This document shows, piece by piece, positions 3,096 to 5,170 of a stretch of DNA of 8,028 nucleotides (the first letter of the stretch is position 1; the number at the start of each line of letters is the position of its first letter). Source of the stretch: Candidatus Latescibacterota bacterium. Its GTDB lineage: Bacteria; JAAXHH01; JACQVL01. The stretch spans positions 1-8,028 of the forward strand of contig JACQVL010000058.1 in NCBI GenBank assembly GCA_016209865.1, given 5' to 3'. The notes under the pieces were generated by a model, which had not been told where the DNA came from, made no database searches, and saw only the letters and a list, made by a program, of their open reading frames with translations. The position numbers and the translations under genes were made by a program.

Positions 3096-3111
3096 GCCAT
3101 TTTCCCGTTCA

Positions 3112-3139
3112 CCGACCCCCGACCCCCGATCACCAACCC
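3112..3139. repeat. Four degenerate CCGACCC-type heptads
   Basis: Four 7-mers in register: CCGACCC twice, then CCGATCA and CCAACCC. They lie between the divergent promoters, 16 bp from the minus-strand -35 and 15 bp from the plus-strand -35. The pattern resembles the CCCGAAC-type heptads at 2092-2119. They could be inert repeat or could influence the divergent promoters by spacing or binding; nothing in the sequence decides this. Confidence 0.6.
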
Positions 3140-3154
3140 TCGGCGTTTTTTCTA

Positions 3155-3210
3155 TTGACAGTAGAAACGAGAGAGGTTATTTTGACAGAAAGCTCGTTGT
3201 GTTCGATGAT
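3155..3210 (+). promoter_or_regulatory. Two overlapping plus-strand sigma70-type promoters
   Basis: Perfect -35 hexamers TTGACA occur at 3155-3160 and 3182-3187. Each has a candidate -10 after 17 bases: TATTTT (3178-3183) and GATGAT (3205-3210), both 4 of 6 to consensus. The first -10 overlaps the second -35, so both could not be occupied at once. They are the only convincing plus-strand promoters upstream of the zinc-ribbon/RNase HI/rnpB unit. The region between the terminator at 3319-3349 and the ATG at 3443 shows no comparable promoter. Confidence 0.6.
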
Positions 3211-3349
3211 CGGCGTTGCGTGATAGTCGCTCGATGAGACGGTTGGGTGCATGCACCGTACACAGGCTGTCGTATGACACGTGTGGTGACGCAGACGATT
3301 CAGAGTGGTGGAATGAGGAAAAGTGCACCCGGTGGTGCACTTTTTTTTT
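3190..3349 (+). ncRNA. Candidate small RNA or attenuated 5' leader
   Basis: Transcription from the 3155 promoter would begin near 3190 and end at the strong terminator at 3319-3349, a transcript of about 160 nt. No ribosome-binding site plus short frame convinced me inside it. It contains a perfect 12-bp palindrome (GGTGCATGCACC, 3246-3257), a further short hairpin around TGTC-GTAT-GACA (3270-3281), and the terminator stem. GGGTGCA (3245-3251) can pair with TGCACCC (3324-3330) in the terminator's 5' arm, a possible antiterminator. It may be a stand-alone sRNA or the leader of the downstream zinc-ribbon operon. I could not match it to 6S RNA, tmRNA or a known riboswitch by eye. Confidence 0.4.
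3319..3349 (+). terminator. Strong rho-independent terminator
   Basis: AAAAGTGCACC (3319-3329) and GGTGCACTTTT (3334-3344) form a perfect 11-bp stem over a CGGT loop, running into nine consecutive T (3341-3349). This is the strongest terminator in the window. It sits 94 bp before the zinc-ribbon start with no plus-strand gene upstream of it, so it must end a non-coding transcript or attenuate a leader. The minus-strand reading has only a four-T tail and would be weaker. Confidence 0.9.
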
Positions 3350-3442
3350 GAGGAGGATCGGCCTGGAGGCTCGACAGAATCGTCCCCATCCGAGGGGGTG
3401 CGGTAAGGCAGCGCCGGATGACGATTGGATGAGGAGGTCCGC

Positions 3443-4153
3443 ATGCAGGACAGTTTGTTGACCCTGCTCCAACTTCAACAGATCGACCAGAGGTTGCAAG
3501 AGTTAGAGCAGCTCAAGGCTGAGATTCCCCGGCAGATCGAGGCCTTAACGCAAGAGTACACGACCATTGAACAGACGTTGACCGACAAAGAACACCGCCT
3601 GGCCGACCTGCACAAGGATCGCCGCCAGCACGAACGAGACCTCGAAGACGCTCAGGAGAAGGCCCGCAAGTATCAAGGGCAATTACTCAGCGTGAAGACG
3701 AACAAAGAATATGACGCCCTCCAGGTGGAAATCCAGACCCAGAAAGTGAACGTGACGGAACATGAGGACGCTATCCTGCGGTTGATGACGGAGATCGAGG
3801 ACCTCAGCCGGGACATCGAGCAGACCCGGCTCATGGTGACGACGCAGCGGCAACGGATCACGGCGGAGCAGGACAGCCTCCAGCACCAGCTCACCGCAGT
3901 CGATGAGGACGTGCAGGTCGTCCTTGACGAGCGGCGGCGGACGCTCGTCCGGATCAACAAGCGGGTCGTCAGCGCGTACGAGCGGGTCAGAAAAGGGAAG
4001 AGCGCGGTGGCGGTGGTGCCCATCAAGAAGGGTGCCTGCGGGGGGTGCTTCAACATCATCCCGCTCCAGCGCATCGCGGAAATCCGGCGGATGGACCGGC
4101 TGATGACCTGTGAAAGCTGCGGGCGGATCCTCGTCCCGGAACCACAGGAATGA
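3443..4153 (+). CDS. Coiled-coil protein with C-terminal C4 zinc ribbon (COG1579 / CdsZ type)
   Basis: 236 residues from ATG at 3443, chosen because GAGGAGG lies exactly five bases upstream. A TTG at 3425 in the same frame adds six residues but sits before that site. Residues ~5-190 are a long heptad coiled coil rich in Glu, Gln, Arg and Leu, with the family-typical LLSVKTNKEYDALQ turn at ~81-94. The C-terminus carries a zinc ribbon with C199-x2-C202 and C223-x2-C226, followed by GRILVPE. This family is widespread in bacteria; roles proposed for relatives involve nucleic acid or ribosome contact, and no enzyme activity is expected. Its stop overlaps the RNase HI start (ATGA at 4150-4153), so translation is probably coupled. 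The same two-gene pairing occurs in actinobacteria, which supports a functional link. Confidence 0.92.
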   Translation: MQDSLLTLLQLQQIDQRLQELEQLKAEIPRQIEALTQEYTTIEQTLTDKEHRLADLHKDRRQHERDLEDAQEKARKYQGQLLSVKTNKEYDALQVEIQTQKVNVTEHEDAILRLMTEIEDLSRDIEQTRLMVTTQRQRITAEQDSLQHQLTAVDEDVQVVLDERRRTLVRINKRVVSAYERVRKGKSAVAVVPIKKGACGGCFNIIPLQRIAEIRRMDRLMTCESCGRILVPEPQE

Positions 4154-4671
4154 CTGCACTCGTCGGGTATATCGACGGTGCGTCGAGGGGCAACCCTGGG
4201 GATGCCGGCATCGGGGTCGTCCTCGTCGCTGAAGACGAGCGGGTCGTGGAGGAAGTCAGTCAGCCGATCGGCCGGGCGACGAACAACGAGGCGGAGTACC
4301 GGGCGCTCCTCGTCTGCCTGGAGCGGGCGCATCAGCACGGGGCACGTTGTCTGACGGTGTGCGCGGACAGTGAGTTGCTCGTCCGCCAGATGAACGGGCA
4401 GTACGCGGTGCGCCACGCGCGCTTGCGCGAGTTCTACCAGGCTGCCTGTGAGCGGGTCGAGGCGTTCGAGGTTGTCGTCTTCTTCCATATCCCCCGGTCG
4501 GCGAACGCCCGCGCCGACGCGCTCGCCAGCGCGGCCGCGAGGAAACAGCAGAAAGAGCGACTAAGAAAAGAAGTGGGTGCGGGCCCAAGGAGGTCAGGTG
4601 ATCGCGTCCGCTCGCCGTCAGGCGGGATGGATGAGGAAAGTCCGAGCACCACAGGGCAGGATGCCTGCTAA
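4150..4671 (+). CDS. rnhA: Ribonuclease HI family protein whose 3' end overlaps rnpB
   Basis: 173 residues. It cleaves the RNA strand of RNA:DNA hybrids, clearing R-loops and primers in the cytoplasm. Catalytic acids are in place: D9 (YIDGASRGNPG), E49 (TNNEAEYRALL), D73 (CADSELLV) and D123 (NARADALAS). The domain is complete by residue ~130, as in compact bacterial and actinobacterial RNase HI. The remaining 43 residues are a basic, Gly/Arg/Ser-rich tail with no recognisable fold, largely a read-through of RNase P RNA sequence: the frame enters rnpB at 4575 and stops at TAA 4669-4671. The start overlaps the zinc-ribbon stop by ATGA with AGGA directly upstream, indicating coupled translation. 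The tail may be tolerated rather than selected. A shorter protein would need a stop that is absent here. Confidence 0.93.
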   Translation: MTALVGYIDGASRGNPGDAGIGVVLVAEDERVVEEVSQPIGRATNNEAEYRALLVCLERAHQHGARCLTVCADSELLVRQMNGQYAVRHARLREFYQAACERVEAFEVVVFFHIPRSANARADALASAAARKQQKERLRKEVGAGPRRSGDRVRSPSGGMDEESPSTTGQDAC

Positions 4672-4993
4672 CGGCAGGGGGCAGTGATGCCACGGACAGT
4701 GTCACAGAAAACACACAGCCGATCCCCGATCCGGGGAGGCAACGGTGAAAAGGCGAGGTAAGAGCTCACCGCGGCCCAGGTAACTGGGCTGGCAGGACAA
4801 ACCCCATCCGGTGCAAGACCGAATAGGAGAGGAGAGACGGCCCGTCTCGCATCCCCCCGGCGTGGCCGGGGACAGACTCTCGGGTACGGTCGCTTGAGGC
4901 GGCTGGTGACAGCCGTCCCAGAGAGATGATCACCACCCTCGCCCCCGGCGAGGGCACAGAACTCGGCTTATGCACTGCTTGGGTTCCGCACCC
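4575..4993 (+). ncRNA. rnpB: RNase P RNA (class A)
   Basis: This is the catalytic RNA of RNase P, which removes 5' leaders from pre-tRNAs together with the RnpA protein. Helix P1 sets the ends: GGGTGCGG (4575-4582) pairs with CCGCACCC (4986-4993), then CCCAAG (4584-4589) with CTTGGG (4978-4983). Conserved blocks appear in order: GAGGAAAGTCCGAGC (4633-4647), GGGCAGGATGCCTGC, CACAGAAAACACACAGCC (~4703-4720), GGTAAGAGCTCACCGCG (4757-4773), GTGCAAGACCGAATAGG (~4812-4828), AGAGAGATGATCACC (~4919-4933) and ACAGAACTCGGCTTA (4956-4970). The length, about 419 nt, fits the class. The L15 segment reads GGAC (4795-4798) where I expect GGU. No clear promoter precedes it; TAAGAA at 4562-4567 is a poor -10. 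It may be processed from the rnhA transcript, with which it overlaps by 97 nt. Confidence 0.96.
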
Positions 4994-5007
4994 GTTTACA
5001 AGCAGTG
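4973..5007 (+). other. 9-bp inverted repeat across the 3' end of rnpB
   Basis: CACTGCTTG (4973-4981) is perfectly complementary to CAAGCAGTG (4999-5007) with a 17-nt loop that contains most of the P1 3' strand. The left arm uses bases 4978-4981 that otherwise pair in P1, so the two structures exclude each other. The right arm runs into the first heptad of the downstream repeat. No T-run follows, so it is not a standard terminator. It could guide 3'-end processing or be a chance product of repeat insertion. Confidence 0.45.
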
Positions 5008-5148
5008 ACGAGTGACCAGTGACGAGTGACAAGTAATACCTCCAGACCAGTACGCTGTCGTTCCCGCGCAAGCAGGAATCCAGCCTTGTATCTCGTCACG
5101 TGTTTTTCTTCGTGTTCTACTCGTCACTCGTCACTGGTCACTCGTCAC
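5005..5148. repeat. Composite heptad-bounded repeat, copy 2
   Basis: The left arm is four 7-mers at 5005-5032 (GTGACGA, GTGACCA, GTGACGA, GTGACAA) followed by GTAATAC. The right arm at 5121-5148 carries four inverted heptads, preceded by GTTCTAC (5114-5120). Between them GTTCCCGC (5060-5067) and GCAGGAAT (5072-5079) form a decayed version of the palindrome in copy 1, in the opposite orientation. At about 144 bp the unit is close to copy 1 (about 143 bp). It occupies nearly the whole spacer between rnpB and recJ and ends 11 bases before the recJ Shine-Dalgarno. I see no gene or clear promoter in this spacer. The arms could fold into a long hairpin in RNA. Confidence 0.75.
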
Positions 5149-5170
5149 TTCGTTTCACAGGAGTCGCTTC

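Follow-up and report, generated by a model that had tools for sequence, protein, structure and literature searches.

In the closest described system, that of Staphylococcus aureus, whose RNase P RNA is of class B, a protein gene lies directly before rnpB, as in the locus presented here. This gene, gpsB (SA1279), and rnpB yield a read-through transcript from which the RNase P RNA is matured by RNase J; a weak promoter of its own possibly also serves rnpB, and an ORF lying inside rnpB (SA1278) may not be translated (PMC3937233). Unlike the rnhA gene described below, gpsB ends before rnpB, and no RNase H is involved. The neighbourhood formed by a zinc-ribbon gene, rnhA and rnpB is found in diverse bacteria in the same order as in our locus, and no paper on it was located. 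Similarly, no description of an overlap of rnhA with rnpB was found in the literature searched, which comprised open-licence papers only.

The window, by which we mean the whole stretch of 8,028 nucleotides analysed (contig JACQVL010000058.1 of a Candidatus Latescibacterota bacterium), harbors in a single direction a zinc-ribbon coiled-coil gene, rnhA, rnpB, recJ and meaB (Table 1). The zinc-ribbon gene starts at an ATG (3443) preceded by AGGAGG, and its stop overlaps the start of rnhA in an ATGA at 4150-4153. The product of rnhA lies above the Pfam cutoffs for PF13456 (77.8 bits) and PF00075 (40.8 bits) and retains the motifs DGASRGNPG, NNEAEY, DSELL and ARADALAS. The acidic D-E-D-D set is present (D in YIDGASRGNPG, E in NNEAEY, D in ADSELL and D in ARADALAS), and we take these residues to be the catalytic ones from general knowledge of RNase HI. 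According to Rfam, rnpB is an RNase P RNA of class A, with a full-length match (model positions 1-367, 265 bits for a cutoff of 100). A dispersed repeat, AGTGACGAGTGACCAGTGACGAGTGAC, is also present in the window at 1989-2025, 5003-5039 and 5113-5149 (reverse), two inverted copies lying just downstream of rnpB; the genome holds 258 matches to it at no more than 3 mismatches, versus 0 for the control.

Table 1. Positions of the features discussed in the text, numbered from the first nucleotide of the window
Feature	Position	Strand	Remarks
Nearest strong sigma-70-like promoter upstream	3155..3183	+	TTGACA-17-TATTTT; consensus match only
Zinc-ribbon coiled-coil protein, CT398-like / Zn_ribbon_9	3443..4153	+	Pfam PF24481, PF02591
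rnhA, RNase HI of RVT_3 type, 173 aa	4150..4671	+	Stop TAA 4669-4671 within rnpB
RNase H domain proper, residues 9-130	4174..4539	+	PF13456, E 8.6e-22
rnhA frame past the domain (43-codon C-terminal extension)	4540..4668	+	GC3 0.58 vs 0.85 in body
Extended P1 helix, 5' strand, GGGUGCGGGCC...	4575..4585	+	Weaker pairs may reach 4571
rnpB, RNase P RNA, bacterial class A	4586..4985	+	RF00010, 265 bits, E 2.9e-86
Conserved region I (CR-I), GAGGAAAGUCC... up to the conserved UAA(C)	4633..4671	+	rnhA frame reads EESPSTTGQDAC, then stop
Extended P1 helix, 3' strand	4986..4997	+	Pairing with 5' strand from 4575

The only in-frame stop of rnhA is the TAA at 4669-4671, and a frame scan bore out the claim of an earlier note on this DNA that the frame has no stop before this point, inside conserved region I of the ribozyme. 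The overlap of 97 nt given in the same note is right if the extended P1 helix, from about 4575, is counted as part of rnpB, and amounts to 86 nt with the Rfam bounds; counted from 4575, the tail of rnhA comprises about 31 codons. The extension of P1 is formed outside the Rfam bounds by GGGUGCGG, from 4575, which pairs with CCGCACCC at 4986-4993. Most of the other 15 genomes in the window's order have it too, formed by different paired sequence, as GUAAAACGUC/GACGUUUUAC in the largest genus, and shuffled-flank controls gave equal pairing in 0 or 1 of 200 shuffles, with the exception of L004 (15/200). P1 is about 12 bp longer in this order than in the Rfam model (4571-4585 with 4982-4997 in the window, and L002-L016), and the extension shows compensatory differences between genera. 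The 43 codons following the RNase H domain would stay free of stops with a probability of about 0.30 from the base composition of the window, so that the open frame alone is no evidence of selection, and the fall in GC3 from 0.85 to 0.58 indicates that the composition typical of coding sequence stops at the end of the RNase H domain.

The arrangement with rnhA directly before rnpB belongs to many bacterial lineages. Across 384 genomes drawn from the whole bacterial domain, in which adjacency was judged from the positions of rnhA and rnpB among the listed matches, an rnhA of the window's type was found in 227, and among the matches listed it lies directly before rnpB, on the same strand, in at least 46 genomes besides the window. 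The stop falls beyond the start of CR-I in 6 of the 47 listed adjacent pairs, window included, inside P1 in about 10 of them, and before P1 in the remainder, many relatives ending rnhA 4-12 residues past the RNase H domain. A zinc-ribbon Cys motif is recognisable upstream of rnhA in 24 of these 47 pairs. With the orders to which three of the overlapping genomes belong examined as well, the deep-overlap loci numbered 15 in all. A search of genome contigs with the window protein yielded a single homologue, an archaeal one, which did not help with the question of the overlap.

The stop codon of rnhA in the window is the UAA of the conserved UAAC of rnpB, in frame and 36 nt past the start of GAGGAAAG. 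Thirteen deep-overlap loci, window included, share this UAA in frame with GAGGAAAG; the other 12 belong to three other clades, include the three starting genomes, and stop at the exact nucleotide used in the window, with tails that read EESPGSTGQGGG, EESPGPTGQGAG or EESPSSTEQGTG at the place of EESPSTTGQDAC. Deep overlaps are also found in L110 and L116, in other frames. Among 88 distinct rnpB cores, taken from all loci fetched, the conserved UAA is the first stop of the GAG-GAA-AGT frame in 85, so that this UAA ends any gene running into rnpB in that phase, and the same frame is open between the start of P1 and CR-I in 69. Judging from these cores, entry in the GAG-GAA-AGT frame would usually suffice to reach the conserved UAA. 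The recurrence of overlap and stop in these 12 loci, on which several species of a clade agree, also speaks against a frameshift or sequencing error in the window, as does the lack of homopolymers of more than 4 nt nearby. Such an error would place the true end of rnhA at a TAA in the +1 frame (4562-4564), just before the extended P1 and near the ends seen in many relatives, and the long branch of the window's rnhA would fit it, but we consider it unlikely.

The overlap is gained and lost among close relatives. In one genus, L170 reads through into rnpB and L171-L174 stop before P1; in another, L132 reads through and L133 stops before P1; in a third order, L162, L163, L166, L167 and L168 read through, and L164, L165 and L169 stop in P1. 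A tree built from 83 adjacent pairs, which is based on a short alignment and has many open forks, requires 10 changes of the overlap character, well-supported branches forcing at least 6 of these. The alignment displays the loss of the stop as a substitution, TTATAA in the relatives versus TTTTAC (TTT TAC) in L170. The rnhA of these relatives ends in TTA TAA inside a TATAAT box just before P1, and in L175, L176 and L132 a shift of 1 nt keeps the TATAAT while the frame reads TAT AAT or TAT ATA. The overlap persists across several genera of one clade (L162, L163, L166, L167 and L168) and across three species of one genus (L134, L136 and L139), thus it is not always short-lived. In one family (L134, L135, L136 and L139), rnhA also carries some 50-80 extra C-terminal residues before rnpB.

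Boxes of this kind bear on the expression of rnpB. Of the 47 listed pairs, 30% have a -10-like box within the 30 nt that precede P1, versus 4.5% of rnhA control stretches, and the 12 genomes of one sister genus harbor a TTGAAC/A-17-TATATT from which transcription would begin at the extended P1. The internal rnpB promoter proposed earlier as one of two possibilities is supported in relatives by these boxes. In the window, a scan found no sigma-70 promoter between rnhA and rnpB, and the position of the sister-genus promoter gave a best score of 5 of 12, no match; no clear rnpB-proximal promoter was found in L002-L004 either. In L171-L173 and L133, the rnhA stop, TAA or TAG, lies within a TATAAT or TATAGT box a few bases before P1, and in some species a putative -10 box of rnpB apparently also provides the stop of rnhA. 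In the window, the zinc-ribbon gene, rnhA and rnpB probably share one transcript from which the RNase P RNA is cut, for which gpsB-rnpB of S. aureus offers a precedent; the ATGA overlap and the lack of a detected proximal promoter hint at such a shared transcript, for which the upstream sigma-70-like sequence (Table 1) is a candidate promoter. The same region (3155-3350) presents a promoter-like pair followed by a T-run hairpin (3318-3349, -16.2 kcal/mol, z -3.9), which could possibly represent a small RNA or an attenuator upstream of the zinc-ribbon gene; an Rfam scan of the leader (3100-3450) gave no match.

Selection on the tail was assessed from the substitutions at codon positions 1/2/3 between overlapping relatives, in families other than that of the window. 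In the enzyme body these amount to 30/19/66, 10/11/53, 36/31/79 and 36/34/84, a third-position excess that is missing from the P1-P3 tail of the same pairs (5/6/7, 1/0/2, 9/10/9 and 10/9/10), where counts are small, with about 20 tail codons per pair and sequences shared between pairs; one pair, L170/L175, deviates with 3/4/8 in the tail. By codon positions, protein-level conservation beyond the demands of the RNA is not seen in the P1-P3 tail of the relatives. The CR-I part of the tail hardly changes between overlapping relatives because the ribozyme does not change there, and since the residues are held invariant through the ribozyme, their conservation by itself is compatible with a protein role of EESPGxTGQ. 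That the tail works as a functional addition to RNase HI, contacting for example the RNase P RNA or its protein, could be suspected from the near-identical tails of unrelated lineages. We regard this as extremely unlikely, as the identity follows from the ribozyme sequence, which does not differ in loci without an overlapping gene, and relatives of the same genus lack the tail. A selected functional overlap of rnhA and rnpB is not supported, given the unbiased tail substitutions and the gain and loss of the overlap in close relatives.

These data also bear on the view, put forward in the earlier note, of a conflict between translation and ribozyme folding or of a regulated nesting of the two genes, which found no support: the overlap toggles between close relatives, and the variable part of the tail shows no sign of selection on the protein. 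In a selected regulatory nesting, ribosomes finishing rnhA would unwind P1-P4, so that translation of RNase HI would set the folding of the RNase P RNA. The frame ending always at one ribozyme position, the maintenance of the overlap in some clades and the lack of a detected proximal promoter in the window would all agree with it. Yet the fixed stop is common to nearly all class A cores examined, including those with no overlapping gene, the overlap comes and goes between species of one genus, the P1-P3 tail is without codon-level constraint, and in relatives a promoter-like box stands immediately ahead of P1, which together leave this nesting very unlikely. We give equally little credence to the related proposal that translating rnhA through P1 as far as the UAA ties the synthesis of RNase HI to the amount of RNase P RNA made, the in-frame UAA protecting the ribozyme from ribosomes where an upstream gene runs in.

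An rnhA of the window's type is absent from all 15 other genomes of the window's order. Unlike the neighbourhood known from diverse bacteria, they harbor the zinc-ribbon gene directly before rnpB, with recJ after it, suggesting that rnhA was either inserted in the lineage of the window or lost in the others. The window's rnhA branches near proteins of a different order, in a set with 98% SH-aLRT, and this placement leans towards acquisition, although not firmly. An assembly chimera was rejected, the zinc-ribbon gene, rnpB and recJ being in the same order in 15 of 15 relatives, and so was an isolated artefact, the same type of overlap recurring in genomes of very different lineages; the conserved neighbours and the recurrence elsewhere together make a chimera unlikely. 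The earlier note had reasoned that this copy would be an assembly artefact if rnhA always ended before P1 in relatives, and deep overlaps in other lineages contradict this.

The reading that we favor, with a probability of roughly 0.8, is that the tail of rnhA represents ribozyme sequence decoded as protein, which arose as a by-product when rnhA lost, or lacked, a stop of its own and which both genes tolerate. The recurrence of the overlap, its fixed stop, its turnover between relatives and the missing codon signal in their tails point to a tail read by default rather than to a selected nesting. In the window, no stop separates the RNase H domain from P1, so that the rnhA frame enters rnpB; the entry phase reads conserved region I as GAG GAA AGT CC(G), with the core open until the conserved UAA, which terminates rnhA. 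The RNase P RNA would be cut from the shared transcript, or be started from a weak rnpB promoter not recognised here. Co-transcription, processing and the accommodation of the tail by the protein are inferred.

The overlap shows that the near-invariant core of the ribozyme doubles as a ready-made stop codon, so that genes upstream of rnpB can repeatedly dispense with a stop codon, apparently at little cost. A C-terminal signature EESPxxTGQxxG is predicted for such proteins and could be mistaken in annotation for a conserved protein motif. Pairs of the same genus with and without the overlap provide natural material on whether ribosomes disturb the folding of an essential RNA. The overlap may be seen as a recurrent variant of overlapping genes, for which a regulatory role is possible but unsupported. 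As in overlaps of protein genes with structured RNAs in general, one DNA stretch serves here as reading frame and as folded RNA; unlike in these, the stop codon comes from the near-invariant core of a catalytic RNA, and the outcome recurs.
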